NCBI GenBank assembly: GCA_913046805.1
Contig: CAJWTA010000038.1
Span: 1 to 9,843 of the forward strand
Reading direction: 5' to 3'
DNA length: 9,843 bases
From: an uncultured Fidelibacterota bacterium
GTDB lineage: Bacteria; Marinisomatota; Marinisomatia; Marinisomatales; TCS55
The notes beneath the pieces were generated by a model, which made no database searches, was not told the origin of the DNA, and worked only from the letters and a program-made list of their open reading frames with translations. This document shows positions 3,084-7,813 of this stretch, piece by piece (position 1 is the first letter of the stretch; the number at the start of each line of letters is the position of its first letter). Made by a program: the position numbers and the translations under genes.

Positions 3084-4376
3084 ATGCTACAACCATCTAA
3101 ATACTTTCTTGCCTATCTATTGGCTATTTCTTTTGCATTTGCAGTACCACCTGCATTAAATGTATACGTTATACCTTTTGATAATTCAAAAAGTGAAACA
3201 GCGCTGACTTGGCTATCTGAGGCTTTTTCTAGTATGGTTACAGCTAATCTTTCTGATCAAGATCGAGTTTATATTAAGGATCAATTAAACCTTGAACAGG
3301 TTATGTCAAATCGTTCCTTATTGAACCAGCAGAAACCGGGGACAAAAAATTTCCTTGTTTTAGGCAAATTTGAACGCTCTCTTGATAAATTAATAGTTTC
3401 TATACAATTAATCGATATAGCTACATGGGATGAAGTTGACAGTAGAAGAATTACCGGTTATTACAACAAAATTGATGATCTAAATTCCTCTTTAGTTGCA
3501 ACGGTAAAAACGATGCTTTCCCCTTATCTGCCTAAACCCACCAAAAGCAAATACCCTACCTTAACAGAGGGAAAGGGTATGCAGAAACCGCCAACCTATG
3601 CCCAGAGCGCTATTGATGCTAGTACGGCTATTGATAATGCAATTATAGAGTTAGAAAAGAAACTTGATGTAAGTATTGGTGCGCAAGGTCAAATCAATCC
3701 TGATGAATCCAGGGAGATTGAAGGGGAGTGGGTTCTGGATTTTTCAAAAGAAGATTATGAGAACGCAAAGCCAGAAAACGAAATGAATACGGTTATGATG
3801 GTTGAGGTGCTCGAAAATTTAATGAATAATCCGTATACTGTAAATTTGGATAAACCAAAATTCAGCTACGACCCACAGAATAAAAAAGAATTTCAGGTTC
3901 AGCTACCAGTAAATTATAAATTAAAGGGAAATATAATTAAGGATATGTTGAAATCGTTGCCGTATTCCGGATTAAAGCAGGACGGCAACCTTACAATTTT
4001 TTATTTTAATAAAGACAAATATAATTTTCCTCCAGGTATATCAGAAAAAATAAAACTCGGTAAATATCGAGCCATACCGGTTATTCAGTTGCAAAACTCT
4101 TTAGGTGTACCTTTAGCTGTTCTGGTTGATTCACATGACAAAACTATTCAAAATCTTAATAGCGATCGTCTGGTTTTTAAATCTTTTAGATCGTTTTCAC
4201 CACTAATAGATTTTACAGTTGGTGGATGGTCGATGCAAGTTTCCTTAGAGACCGTTGATATTTCTGCTAATTACGAGTTTAAAATTGATGTAAAAACAGC
4301 AAATAGTATTAGTAGGGTAAAATTAAAATTCGTTCCTGAAAACGAGTTATATGATTACCTAAGCACATTGCTCTAA
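3084..4376 (+). CDS. Exported protein with CsgG/FlgO-like N-terminal half, function unknown
   Basis: A 430-residue envelope protein opening the four-gene run. Residues 1-20 form a signal peptide (hydrophobic LAYLLAISFAFA, probable cleavage AFA/VPP) with no lipobox cysteine. Residues ~22-150 (NVYVIPFDNS, ...WLSEAFSSMVTANLS, NFLVLGKFERSLDKLIVSIQLIDIATWDEV) have the alpha/beta pattern of CsgG/FlgO/TolB-N-like domains: a strand ending in PF-N, a helix that names a family member to inhibit or query, and a 'G-F---DKLIVSIQLID-ATWDEV' strand pair. This is pattern recognition, not a verified hit. After a Pro/Lys-rich linker (~150-170), residues ~210-430 look beta-rich and match no family I know. There is no Shine-Dalgarno before ATG 3084. 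The 10-base gap to the thioredoxin gene implies a shared transcript and perhaps a common role at the outer membrane. Confidence 0.8.
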   Translation: MLQPSKYFLAYLLAISFAFAVPPALNVYVIPFDNSKSETALTWLSEAFSSMVTANLSDQDRVYIKDQLNLEQVMSNRSLLNQQKPGTKNFLVLGKFERSLDKLIVSIQLIDIATWDEVDSRRITGYYNKIDDLNSSLVATVKTMLSPYLPKPTKSKYPTLTEGKGMQKPPTYAQSAIDASTAIDNAIIELEKKLDVSIGAQGQINPDESREIEGEWVLDFSKEDYENAKPENEMNTVMMVEVLENLMNNPYTVNLDKPKFSYDPQNKKEFQVQLPVNYKLKGNIIKDMLKSLPYSGLKQDGNLTIFYFNKDKYNFPPGISEKIKLGKYRAIPVIQLQNSLGVPLAVLVDSHDKTIQNLNSDRLVFKSFRSFSPLIDFTVGGWSMQVSLETVDISANYEFKIDVKTANSISRVKLKFVPENELYDYLSTLL

Positions 4377-4386
4377 AATAATTTTG

Positions 4387-4869
4387 ATGTATAAATTCCT
4401 TTTCTTGGCAAGCCTAGCCTTTTTATCAGAATTGCGCGCTCAAAACGTACAAACCAATCTTCGTCTCAATCGAATCGATGGAAAAAAAGTTAACTTAAAG
4501 CAGTATCTTGACAACGGACCAGTTCTTATAAATTTTTGGGCTACTTGGTGTGGGCCCTGTAAGAAAGAAATGTTGCACTTGGATCGTTTATCAAAAACGT
4601 ATAAAAAAAACAAATTAACCATACTTTCAATCAGCATTGATACACAGCGCAGTTTATCAGAAGTCAAAAGGTTTGTTCGTTCAAAAAGATATGAGTTTGA
4701 AGTATTTCTTGATCCAAATCAGCAAATTTTTAAAAAACTTAATGGAAATATTATGCCAACGAATGTGCTGATTGATAAAACTGGAAAAATTGTTTGGATG
4801 CATTATGGATATATGCCTGGAGATGAAAAAATCATGGAGCAGCAAATTTCACAGCTTGTTCGTCGATGA
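4387..4869 (+). CDS. TlpA-like periplasmic thioredoxin (thiol-disulfide oxidoreductase)
   Basis: A 160-residue exported thioredoxin-fold protein that should reduce or shuffle disulfides in periplasmic partners. I chose ATG 4387 over the in-frame TTG one codon upstream. Residues 1-19 are a signal peptide (FLFLASLAFLSELRAQ). The fold follows: NGPVLINFWATWCGPCKKEM with the active-site pair Cys55-Gly-Pro-Cys58, a SIDTQRSLSEVKRFV segment, DPNQQIFKKLN, the cis-proline loop IMPTNVLID (Pro124), and a final strand and helix. This order is that of the TlpA/ResA/AhpC-TSA family, at a typical length. Its stop TGA overlaps the next gene's ATG (ATGA at 4866-4869), a mark of translational coupling. It lies two genes before a putative Sec-containing thioredoxin-like lipoprotein, so it could be that protein's electron donor or acceptor (inference). 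Confidence 0.93.
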   Translation: MYKFLFLASLAFLSELRAQNVQTNLRLNRIDGKKVNLKQYLDNGPVLINFWATWCGPCKKEMLHLDRLSKTYKKNKLTILSISIDTQRSLSEVKRFVRSKRYEFEVFLDPNQQIFKKLNGNIMPTNVLIDKTGKIVWMHYGYMPGDEKIMEQQISQLVRR

Positions 4870-6593
4870 AAAGCCGTATTTCTATATCCTTTTTAATGTT
4901 CTTAAGTATCGGTTTGGCTCAAATAAACTTCTCAGGATCATTGGTTTCAAATTCTGGCAGCAGTGAAAATAGTTTTAATTATTCTGAAAATAGGTTTAGC
5001 CTTAATTCAGACTGGAATAATTGGATAGGTTGGCTTGAGCTCGAACATTCAAATCCCCCTGAATTAGGTAGAAAGAACATAGGGTTAAGGAAGATTCGAA
5101 TAGAGTATCAAGGAAATAACTTTGCTCTCAAGCTTGGAGATATTTATGAATATTGGGGGAATGGGCTCATATTCAATATGATAGATGATCAAAGTATTGA
5201 TTTGGACACTGGTTTAAAAGGAGCCCTTATCTCGTATACCAATGATTTTGCTATCTTTGAATATATCTACGGCAATCAACGAAGCTGGAGATCAACTATC
5301 CACATGCCTGATTTCGATGAACGCATACCAAATTTTAGATCAAATTATATTTTGAATGGAGTAAAAACCTCATTTAATCTCCAAAATAGTTCTTATGATT
5401 TTTATTTATTAGATGTAGCTAATAACGCCATTGATTTTGATATCAATTCAACCCTAAATAAATCTTCAATTGAAACGAGTTCGTTATTAAGTGGATTTAG
5501 TCTTAATTACGCCTACAATAACTTTGAACTGGATTATCATTTTACAGGTAAGGTTAAGCATAAGGGTTCAGCGCACAATTTCAATTCCTATGTCTTTTTA
5601 AATGATTTTTCTTTTAGTTTATCTTTAAAAGATTATTATTTTGACAAACTTTCTCCTGATAACCGTTGGGATTTTATCAATAATCCAAATGGAGTAGCTT
5701 TCTTTCAGCAAATGCCTACAGTTTTTAAAACTCATAGCTCATTATACCTAGCGAGAGCTACGCATCGCGTGGATTATAACGATGAGCTTGGCTTTAGCTT
5801 CACTGTTGAAAAGCAAAATAGAAGCAATGGATCATTCATTTTTAATTATTCACAATCCAGCCGTCACGCGGAATGGGAAAATGTTGCGGATCAAAACTCT
5901 GCTTTTGTTTGGAGCGTTAAAGACCGCACCACACTTCCATCATCGAAATGGCAATACAATCCATTTCAAGAAATCTATTTTGAGGTGAATGGATATCATG
6001 ACTCTAAGTTGTTTTATCAAATGTCTTATGCTAATAGTTATGACGTATTGGATATATTTTCAAGTAAGTATTTACAATCTGGGCATGCCTACAGCTACGA
6101 AGCCTTGAACGCAAAAACGATACCCATCATCATGTCTTATGAATTAAACTCAAGGAATAGTATCAATACTCAGATAGAATATCAGATCTTGAAAAAAGGT
6201 ATTTACAGCATAAATCCAAATAGCGCAAATTTAAATCAGAGCTTTGGATCAAGTTTTTCTGAGAAAGTGCAAAGAAATAAATTTATTAGTATAGGTTTTT
6301 CTAGATCTCCAAAATGGTCAATTAGTCTTAATATAGATAATACCAACACGGAAGATATTTTAATTATTGAGAAGAAAAGAAGTTCAAACTTTATTGAGAA
6401 TTTATTACACCCTTATATTGATAAATCGCTCACATGGTCAAATGTTGAGCTTATCTTTAATCCGTATAATTCCACACAAATTTCTTTATCCTACGGATCT
6501 CAGAGAGGTGGCGTGCTTTGCAGTAACGGTATTTGTAGATATGTACAATCCTTTGAAAATGGACTTAAATTTGGCATAACCGCAGCTTTTTAA
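4866..6593 (+). CDS. DUF6029-like outer-membrane protein
   Basis: A 575-residue exported protein with a signal peptide (residues 1-19, ISFLMFLSIGLAQ) and a body of alternating hydrophobic/polar, aromatic-rich strands ending in LKFGITAAF, a terminal Phe typical of outer-membrane beta-barrels. The segment at residues 89-124, LKLGDIYEYWGNGLIF...DLDTGLKGALISY, matches the conserved 'G-D-YE-FG-GL-LR...LG-DN-L-GA' core of DUF6029 proteins as I recall it from Bacteroidota. There is almost no cysteine apart from a C-x4-C pair near residues 555-560 (GVLCSNGICRY), which could form a disulfide. The start ATG lies inside the thioredoxin stop (ATGA) and the next gene begins 2 bases after the TAA, so all three are likely co-translated. 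DUF6029 genes often sit near TlpA-type and Omp28-type genes (from memory), and this arrangement agrees. Confidence 0.8.
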   Translation: MKSRISISFLMFLSIGLAQINFSGSLVSNSGSSENSFNYSENRFSLNSDWNNWIGWLELEHSNPPELGRKNIGLRKIRIEYQGNNFALKLGDIYEYWGNGLIFNMIDDQSIDLDTGLKGALISYTNDFAIFEYIYGNQRSWRSTIHMPDFDERIPNFRSNYILNGVKTSFNLQNSSYDFYLLDVANNAIDFDINSTLNKSSIETSSLLSGFSLNYAYNNFELDYHFTGKVKHKGSAHNFNSYVFLNDFSFSLSLKDYYFDKLSPDNRWDFINNPNGVAFFQQMPTVFKTHSSLYLARATHRVDYNDELGFSFTVEKQNRSNGSFIFNYSQSSRHAEWENVADQNSAFVWSVKDRTTLPSSKWQYNPFQEIYFEVNGYHDSKLFYQMSYANSYDVLDIFSSKYLQSGHAYSYEALNAKTIPIIMSYELNSRNSINTQIEYQILKKGIYSINPNSANLNQSFGSSFSEKVQRNKFISIGFSRSPKWSISLNIDNTNTEDILIIEKKRSSNFIENLLHPYIDKSLTWSNVELIFNPYNSTQISLSYGSQRGGVLCSNGICRYVQSFENGLKFGITAAF

Positions 6594-6595
6594 AT

Positions 6596-7642
6596 ATGAA
6601 AAGATTCATAAATAAATACTTAATAATAGCATGTTTTTCTTTTTGGGCTTGTGAAGACAAAACAACGGTTTCCAGCTTAGACTCCATTCAAATTATTATC
6701 AGTCAAGATGTGTTAATGCCAAAACAGACCACATATATATATGCTCGTGGATTTGATAAAGATGGCAATAGGATCGATAAACTGCCCGTTGAGTGGTCGA
6801 CATCAAATCCAGAAATTGCCTCTATTGATAATGAAGGTAAGGTCATTGCCATTTCAAAAGGTATATCAAGAATAACTGCTAAAAGCTCAACTATTTCTGC
6901 CTCATCAGATATTATTGTTTCAGTGAATAAAAAAAGGGTTTTAAGTGAGATGTTTACATCATCTACCTGAGGACCTTGTGCCTCCGCGGAGCGGAGTTTG
7001 AACAATTATACCAATCAATCATCCGTTAATTCAATTAGCGCAGAATTGGATAGTATTTGGTCGCGTATCTATTATCACGTATGGTGGCCATCACCTGGAA
7101 ACGATCCGATGTATGCCCTCAATCCTGAATTAAATAGAAGCAGAAGCGCTTACTACGAAGGTAGCTTTACTCCGCATATGTTTACAAACGGGCTCGATTC
7201 AGGTTCAAGCTTAAACTTGTGGCTTGAGGACCCAAAAAAATATTTAAATACCGTATCTACCTACAATATTTCCCATAAGGGTTCCAGAATTAACGATAGA
7301 ATTGATTTTATGGTTACCACAACCAATATGAAGAATAGTGATAGTGCAAGTGATATTCGGTTATTTGTGGCTGCTGTAATGGCAAAGGTAGTATACCCAG
7401 GATCTTTCAATGGAATGTATGAACACAAAAATGTTGTTATGGAGCAATTGCTGGGTAATTCGGGGAAAAGAATAAATTATATCGCCAATGTCGATTACGT
7501 TGAAAGTTTTAATTGGTCCATACCAGAAGTTTGGAAGAATAATCCCGATATCAAGTGGAGTATTGGTAGTCTCAAAGTAGTATCGTGGATACAGGATTAT
7601 AATTCAAAAGAAATTTTGCAATCAGCAGAATTGAATTTTTGA
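6596..7642 (+). CDS. Putative selenoprotein: Big_2 + Omp28/thioredoxin-like lipoprotein with UGPC centre (TGA read as Sec)
   Basis: Read through the in-frame TGA at 6968-6970, this is one 348-residue protein. Residues 1-19 are a signal peptide with a lipobox-like FWAC, so Cys19 is probably lipidated and the protein held on the outer membrane. Residues ~28-112 form a Big_2 immunoglobulin-like domain (VEWSTSNPEIASIDNEGKV...GISRITAKSS). From ~115 comes a thioredoxin-fold Omp28-type domain: VLSEMFTSST-Sec125-GP-Cys128-ASAERSLNNY, then IYYHVWWPSPGNDPMYALN, the R--YY-G-FTPHMFTNG cis-Pro block, and a beta-rich tail. Family members have Cys where the TGA falls. Frame, composition and homology run on unbroken across the TGA, and a SECIS-like hairpin follows. 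The start ATG 6596 is 2 bases after the DUF6029-like stop. The real stop is also TGA (7640-7642), with a second in-frame TGA at 7664. Alternatives are a sequencing error in TGT/TGC or a recent nonsense mutation. Conventional calling would give a 124-residue stub and a false TTG start at 6998. Confidence 0.82.
6968..6970 (+). other. Predicted selenocysteine codon (UGA recoding site)
   Basis: The TGA follows Thr124 and precedes Gly-Pro-Cys, so it takes the first, nucleophilic position of a CxxC redox motif. TGA differs by one base from either Cys codon. TGA is an ordinary stop elsewhere in the window: the thioredoxin gene ends with it in an ATGA overlap at 4866-4869. A genome-wide reassignment of TGA is therefore unlikely, and no other gene here contains an in-frame TGA. 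Confidence 0.8.
6976..7005 (+). promoter_or_regulatory. Bacterial SECIS-like hairpin
   Basis: CTCCGC (6982-6987) pairs perfectly with GCGGAG (6991-6996) around the loop GGA (6988-6990). TTGT (6976-6979) can pair with ACAA (7002-7005), adding a lower stem across an asymmetric internal loop. The apical loop starts 18 bases after the TGA and begins with GG. Known bacterial SECIS elements lie inside the coding region just after the UGA, with an apical loop roughly 16-37 bases away and a G at its first or second position for SelB binding, so the geometry fits. The stem is all GC-rich codons (GCC TCC GCG GAG CGG) in an AT-rich gene, as if the RNA shape were selected. Confidence 0.75.
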
Positions 7643-7731: not shown

Positions 7732-7805
7732 GCACCCGTAGCTCAACTGGATAGAGCGTTCGGCTACGGACCGAAAGGTTGAGGGTTCGAATCCTTCCGG
7801 GTGTA
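7732..7805 (+). tRNA. tRNA-Arg (anticodon ACG)
   Basis: The full cloverleaf can be drawn. The acceptor stem GCACCCG (7732-7738) pairs with CGGGTGT (7798-7804) with one terminal G-U. The D-arm GCTC...GAGC spans 7741-7757. The anticodon stem TTCGG/CCGAA flanks the loop CTACGGA (7764-7770) with ACG at 7766-7768. The variable loop is AGGTT, the T-stem is GAGGG/CCTTC around TTCGAAT (7786-7792), and the discriminator is A7805. The 3' CCA is not encoded (ACT follows), so it must be added by the CCA-adding enzyme. A34 should be edited to inosine by TadA so that CGU, CGC and CGA are read. Only 23 bases separate it from the next ATG. Confidence 0.97.
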
Positions 7806-7813
7806 CTGTTACT

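Follow-up and report, generated by a model that had tools for sequence, protein, structure and literature searches.

A predicted Omp28-related selenoprotein with a U-G-P-C motif in the Fidelibacterota, forming a separate branch beside GOS_C

The window considered here is the whole of a 9,843-nucleotide stretch of DNA from an uncultured Fidelibacterota bacterium (contig CAJWTA010000038.1, assembly GCA_913046805.1). In a gene at positions 6596-7642, an in-frame TGA at 6968-6970 is likely read as selenocysteine (Sec, U), which would give a thioredoxin-like protein with a U-G-P-C motif that is predicted to be an outer-envelope lipoprotein. The gene is highly likely to encode a selenoprotein because the UGA, a bacterial Sec insertion sequence (bSECIS)-like hairpin, the pairing of Sec with Cys among homologues, the coding constraint and the Sec machinery of relatives agree. 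An earlier note on this DNA had proposed Sec in place of the first Cys of CGPC, and the conserved TGA, the Cys homologues, the hairpin and the purifying selection bear this out. The same note took the protein for an undescribed kind of envelope selenoprotein, a claim that does not hold since a relative has already been catalogued as NF045500, or GOS_C. The gene is a variant beside GOS_C and not a new kind, because it falls below the NF045500 cut-off, lies on a separate branch and has another motif, N-terminus and hairpin.

A single frame runs from the ATG at 6596 to the TGA ending at 7642, and the TGA at 6968-6970 is its sole internal break, as the earlier note had read it. In the list of open reading frames (ORFs), 6596-6970 and 6998-7642 flank this TGA, and Sec read-through of the whole gives 348 residues with the motif U125-G-P-C128. 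The blocks VLSEMFTSST, YYHVWWP, and FTPHMFTNG, which the note had assigned to a thioredoxin-like fold, are all found in the read-through translation. Of the 245 phylum genomes surveyed, 67 have a match at 1e-6, and 14 of these carry close family members. These 14 Fidelibacterota genomes and the window provide the 15 sequences of what will be called the core family. The features of the gene are as follows.

6596..7642, plus strand: predicted selenoprotein gene, 348 residues, Sec at residue 125, end stop TGA at 7640-7642; called from the frame and the conserved TGA
6596..6652, plus strand: N-terminal signal, in which Cys19 (codon 6650-6652), with acidic residues after it (CED), is the candidate site of lipid attachment; Cys in 15/15 core sequences, lipidation putative
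6662..6925, plus strand: Big_2-type bacterial immunoglobulin (Ig)-like domain, residues ~23-110
6920..7639, plus strand: Omp28/HBP35-type domain, consisting of a thioredoxin-like part and a C-terminal beta domain, residues 109-348
6968..6970, plus strand: in-frame TGA, predicted Sec codon, residue 125; 15/15 core sequences, 16/16 with a paralogue in genome G098
6968..6979, plus strand: UGPC active-site motif, residues 125-128, aligning with CGPC of Cys homologues
6982..6996, plus strand: bSECIS-like hairpin CTCCGC-GGA-GCGGAG, loop at 6988-6990 (17 nt past the UGA), fitting the published bSECIS geometry
7172..7174, plus strand: Pro193, predicted cis-Pro opposite the active site (TPHMFTNG block), invariant in alignment A2 and in 15/15 core sequences

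The TGA occupies the same codon in 15/15 core sequences and neither TGT nor TGC is found there, in line with the suggestion that related genomes be searched for it. Among the first six related loci, five Marinimicrobia/Neomarinimicrobiota drafts have TGA, and a distant Euryarchaeota draft has TGC. A search of 5.8 billion database proteins has matched 174 homologues, of which 120 are listed. Among the matches listed, 64/64 with at least 40% identity begin past residue 125, with projected starts at 135-158, while 56/56 below 40% identity have Cys at residue 125, where the earlier note had expected it. These 120 of the 174 homologues include no full-length protein of the core clade with Cys. The 64 listed close homologues are post-UGA fragments, i.e., truncated gene calls, and the misannotation is systematic.

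The alternation of Sec and Cys extends over a wider set of relatives. The Sec column holds U in 16/16 core sequences (including the G098 paralogue), in 9/9 sequences of an intermediate group (UGPC, UPSC, UPGC, UPYC), and in 23/24 GOS_C sequences, the remaining stretch not spanning the site. The group fetched as Cys candidates has 16 C and 1 U (L058), and ten database proteins together with locus L006 all have C. On a tree of 76 rows, which is unrooted and has some long branches, the distribution of Sec and Cys requires four changes, at least three of them by well supported branches. Omp28-type frames with one TGA (UGPC, UPSC, UPGC, UPYC) have also been observed in L043-L045, L048-L052, L055, and L058; nine of these are ~590 residues long, and they score below the NF045500 cut-off where matched. 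These frames are likely further unannotated selenoproteins of the phylum.

Coding constraint persists past the TGA, as the earlier note required of a genuine read-through. Downstream of the TGA, the ratio of nonsynonymous to synonymous substitution rates (dN/dS) is finite at 0.068-0.135 in 5/8 pairs, and dS is saturated in the other three. Among pairs with unsaturated dS, L001/L002 has 0.135 before the TGA and 0.068 past it, and L041/L042 has 0.167 and 0.088, respectively. Pairs with the window are partly saturated at silent sites: window/L031 has a downstream dN/dS of 0.098, and the ratio is not finite for window/L001 and window/L002 (pN 0.124 and 0.138 vs pS 0.852 and 0.756). Judged from these values, purifying selection acts both before and after the TGA. 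The segment from the TGA to the following start codon is among the best conserved, with UGPC.SAER invariant across the 15 core sequences. A pseudogene, a frameshift or a sequencing error is ruled out by the homologue pattern, the TGA in 15/15 and the purifying selection. A second, diverged Sec paralogue (L089:1683-2597, G098) has the motif U-S-N-C, keeps the TGA and lies outside the conserved locus.

The codons at positions +5 to +8 past the TGA (TCC GCG GAG CGG) are identical in 15/15 core sequences, compared with a mean codon identity of 0.28 over 43 other conserved columns of residues with at least four-fold degeneracy. The invariant codons fold as N-TCCGC-GGA-GCGGR-N', giving six pairs around a GGA loop. 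The outer pair is formed by the third base of codon +4 and the second base of codon +9, where base swaps alter the amino acid. Five core sequences have C-G at this pair, six A-T, two T-A and one G-C, and one is unpaired; this covariation is matched by 0/20000 permutations. The G098 paralogue keeps the GGA loop but has a stem of different bases. When it is added to the core, 98.9% of the cells pair, both partners change in 3/6 pairs, and covariation scores 0.321 vs a shuffled mean of 0.084 (0/500); slid versions of the hairpin are 30-57% paired. A comparably placed hairpin of -6 kcal/mol or lower is found at the TGA in 14/15 genes vs 70/3885 other codon positions of the same 15 genes.

The bSECIS model given in section 5 of a 2026 review (PMC13188914) has a loop of 3-9 nt with G in its first two positions, a stem of 4-16 bp and a distance of 16-37 nt from the UGA. 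The window hairpin, with a 3-nt loop starting GG, 6 bp and 17 nt past the UGA, agrees with this geometry, and its isolated stem, at -8.2 kcal/mol, satisfies the published value of -7.5 kcal/mol. An Rfam scan of the window found no SECIS family, the matches being a tRNA and a sub-threshold antisense match on it. The conserved covarying hairpin is likely a bacterial SECIS as judged by its pattern of substitution. Its four invariant codons, its three compensated pairs and the one paralogue that deviates make it a natural set for the study of SelB recognition in an uncultured lineage.

The earlier note had also called for a search for selA, selB, selC, and selD. Counts have been made in the 14 relatives' genomes that carry the gene: selA is over the cut-off in 9/14, selB in 8/14, and tRNA-Sec in 10/14, and at least one of the three is present in 13/14. 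The missing genes are likely draft-assembly gaps. The search for selD in G001-G005 has found it in 5/5, each with one in-frame TGA, and selA, selB, selC, and selD are all present in G001, G002, G004, and G005. The tRNA-Sec matches of these four genomes are called tRNA-SeC with a TCA anticodon; the best match in G003 is a tRNA-Ser. A second selD copy in G002 also has one in-frame TGA, and in this feature all these genes resemble known Sec-containing SelD. On contig C28 of G106, a selB frame interrupted by one TGA and one TAG lies beside an intact selA, reflecting either assembly error or decay. Cys-type relatives have been read in 16 genomes. The six small ones (G042, G044, G045, G048, G058, and G062) have no selA and no selB or tRNA-Sec over the cut-off, G042 having a tRNA-Sec match slightly below threshold (46.6 vs 47 bits). 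The other ten Cys-type genomes still carry selA, and the Cys form is therefore not bound to a loss of the Sec machinery.

The protein is predicted to consist of a lipoprotein-type N-terminus, an Ig domain and a thioredoxin-like domain. Cys19 is kept in 15/15 core sequences with two acidic residues after each, and the protein is predicted to be an outer-envelope lipoprotein lipidated at this residue. Of the lipoprotein signal of the earlier note, this Cys and its acidic neighbours are conserved, whereas the residues ahead of the Cys do not conform to a lipobox, as discussed below; lipidation and a surface or periplasmic location are predictions. The Big_2 domain (PF02368) named in the note scores 21.8 bits in the window vs the gathering cut-off of 22.8, 1 bit short, and 23.1-56.9 bits in the relatives, 14/14 of which are over the cut-off. 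The region also matches an Ig fold structurally.

The structural model joins this Big_2 Ig domain to a domain nearest HBP35. The thioredoxin-like fold proposed in the note is matched as HBP35/DUF1223-type, and the first helix begins with the active-site motif. In thioredoxin folds a cis-Pro faces the active site, the place predicted here for Pro193. Sequence searches of solved structures have given Ig-like matches only with the single protein (E 0.0012 or weaker), and weak Omp28, DUF1223, and HBP35 matches with an alignment profile, the HBP35 match over the active site scoring 7.4 bits. HBP35 of Porphyromonas gingivalis (PDB 5y1a) is the closest solved fold, at 15% identity and with Cys instead of Sec. 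It differs in having no preceding Ig domain and in having a type IX sorting domain, and it binds hemin. Among the Cys families, the window protein is below both cut-offs of the Omp28 family outer membrane lipoprotein (PDB 2r2c): NF033782 gives 25.6 bits vs 150, and PF11551 has no window match and a best relative of 26.2 bits vs 34.9. DUF1223 (PF06764; PDB 2axo) has Cys, lacks the Ig domain and is of unknown function. Sec thioredoxin and TlpA-type selenoproteins, as listed in Table 1 of PMC13188914, are alike in their UxxC chemistry; they are other thioredoxin-fold families, with no Big_2/Omp28 architecture.

The genes in the window are, in order, gltX, glnS, a gene for a 430-residue protein, a TlpA/ResA-like thioredoxin gene, DUF6029, the selenoprotein gene, tRNA-Arg, and a gene for a sortilin/Vps10-type BNR repeat protein. 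The two genes immediately upstream are as follows.

4384..4869, plus strand: TlpA/ResA-like exported thioredoxin, WCGPC, ATG at 4387, with Redoxin/AhpC-TSA domains
4866..6593, plus strand: DUF6029 protein, predicted outer-membrane beta-barrel (PF19494, 79.9 bits)

The DUF6029 protein is predicted to be a barrel from its C-terminal Phe and its family. Its gene shares 4 nt with the tlpA-like gene, and only 2 nt separate its end from the selenoprotein ATG; this spacing suggests that the three genes are on one transcript. The tlpA-like gene is upstream in 13/14 core loci, the stretch of the 14th (G101) being too short; DUF6029 is upstream in 13/14 (not found in G085), and Vps10 is downstream in 8/14. 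The gltX...TlpA-DUF6029-Omp28 order is common to the 4/4 Cys loci and 3/3 intermediate loci examined.

Based on these features, a mechanism can be proposed. SelB with Sec-tRNA would bind the hairpin, and Sec would be inserted at the UGA. The protein would be exported and lipidated at Cys19, with the Ig domain spacing the thioredoxin part off the membrane. Sec125 would be the attacking residue, acting on a disulfide (or an oxidised thiol) of an envelope or extracellular substrate, and Cys128 would resolve the mixed selenylsulfide. The TlpA-like WCGPC neighbour would likely re-reduce the selenoprotein, and the DUF6029 protein may serve as an outer-membrane partner. Thiol-disulfide exchange in the outer envelope is the likely predicted activity, and a reductive direction is more likely than an oxidative one.

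Several observations weigh against the reading of the gene as a selenoprotein gene for an envelope lipoprotein with reductive activity. The window FWA ahead of Cys19 differs from the textbook lipobox. The evidence for the Sec machinery is drawn from relatives' genomes and not from that of the window organism, selA is not found in 5/14 core genomes, and one of the 14 (G101) is without selA, selB or tRNA-Sec over the cut-off. The isolated stem reaches -7.5 kcal/mol in 6/15 core sequences only, although all 15 of the 42-nt stretches reach that value; the minimum free energy structure is another fold in 2/15 stretches (L001, L040), and the outer pair is broken in L004. The fold energy of the window's 51 nt is ordinary when compared with shuffles (z -0.65; 44/200 fold as well). 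Since the single-sequence folding energy is not distinct from shuffles, the covariation and the codon invariance have been taken as deciding. The direction of catalysis is affected by HBP35, which has the same fold and, as cited in PMC2907840, complemented an E. coli dsbA mutant. An enzyme that forms disulfides (oxidising, DsbA-like) or isomerises them is thus conceivable, and an oxidant role is possible for exported thioredoxins; such an enzyme is unlikely here, though deserving some weight. HBP35 also has thioredoxin activity and reduces insulin according to the same paper (PMC2907840). The conserved neighbour of the selenoprotein is TlpA/ResA-like, and this is a family of reductants. Sec has a low redox potential and mostly reductive or peroxidatic roles, which likewise counts against an oxidising enzyme.

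A true stop, leaving a 124-residue Ig lipoprotein and a separate 214-residue protein made by reinitiation, would agree with the two ORFs and with the annotation of the downstream part alone in the close homologues, but it is very improbable. The highly conserved stretch from the TGA to the next start would then go untranslated, and the thioredoxin fold would be split between a strand and the active-site helix. The downstream starts vary among homologues, and the covarying hairpin also argues against it. A genome-wide reassignment of TGA to another amino acid, e.g., Trp or Gly, has the open frame in its favour and nothing else, and its probability is negligible: there is one in-frame TGA only, TGA terminates both the tlpA-like gene and the gene itself (TAA ends the four other complete reading frames checked), and the site holds Cys in homologues, not Trp or Gly. 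The hairpin also speaks for Sec, as does the relatives' SelD, whose single in-frame TGA recalls that of known Sec-SelD.

GOS_C was first reported from 74 ocean metagenome reads in 2008 (Zhang and Gladyshev, PMC2398784). The NCBIfam model NF045500, "Omp28-related selenoprotein", corresponds to it, and Table 1 of the 2026 review (PMC13188914) lists it as a UxxC hypothetical protein. That the gene is a plain member of this family is a low-probability alternative. Both have an Omp28-type thioredoxin-like domain with Sec first in UxxC, both are marine and from the same phylum, and 3/3 GOS_C loci examined are in the same gltX...TlpA/DUF6029 locus. However, membership in NF045500 has been tried and rejected, as the window protein scores 16.1 bits vs the cut-off of 200 and three core relatives scanned score 28.5-34.6. 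NF045500 is over the cut-off in 24/245 phylum genomes, none among the 14 core genomes, and no genome among the 245 has both the core gene and NF045500 over threshold. The core forms one clade (support 100/100) and GOS_C another fully supported clade, with a branch of 1.43. The motif is UGPC in 15/15 core sequences vs UPYC or UPTC in 23/23 readable GOS_C sequences, and the hairpin loop is GGA in the core vs AGUUU-type in GOS_C. Big_2 and Cys19 occur only in the core among the groups looked at; the seven GOS_C starts looked at have no Big_2 and no lipid-type Cys. By these sequence comparisons, which used the NF045500 model and phylum genomes while the 2008 reads may include the window clade, the gene is a separate branch beside GOS_C with its own motif, Ig domain, lipoprotein-like start and SECIS.

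The selenoprotein reading extends a family, reviewed in 2026 as a hypothetical protein only, by a clade that is distinct in motif, architecture and SECIS. It also supplies GOS_C with a context, a conserved TlpA-like/DUF6029 locus with Sec and Cys forms alternating across a major marine phylum (formerly SAR406), and opens to testing why selenium would go into an envelope thiol enzyme. Tentatively, the TlpA-like/DUF6029/Omp28 trio may be an outer-envelope disulfide-exchange machine, a selenium-based electron relay to the cell exterior. Sec would then have been placed in the surface-tethered terminal lipoprotein more than once (as UGPC with a GGA hairpin in the core, as UPYC with a different hairpin in GOS_C, and as UPxC elsewhere), with streamlined lineages without Sec machinery keeping the locus with Cys; this larger picture is doubtful at present. 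The accessible part of PMC13188914 makes no mention of genomic context for GOS_C. Of the GOS_C genes in the cluster (L115, L116, L117), that of G129 precedes TlpA, that of G120 lies between the 430-residue gene and DUF6029, and that of G088 follows DUF6029.

Literature searches of the available collection have found no paper pairing selenoprotein with Omp28 or UGPC, or selenocysteine with DUF1223 or Fidelibacterota/Neomarinimicrobiota. Among the papers returned for selenoprotein with Marinimicrobia and selenocysteine with SAR406, two (PMC8318568, PMC5029168) concern, in their available parts, matters other than this gene, and among the matches listed for DUF6029 with Omp28 there are unrelated Brucella Omp28 papers only. 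Viral contigs gave no match to the search patterns. In the window, tRNA-Arg (ACG) is at 7732-7806, and the sub-threshold Rfam match on its antisense strand, to Plastid-ycf2, is likely spurious. The 430-residue protein at 3084-4376 is without a Pfam match, and its position between glnS and the tlpA-like gene is kept in 13/14 core loci.
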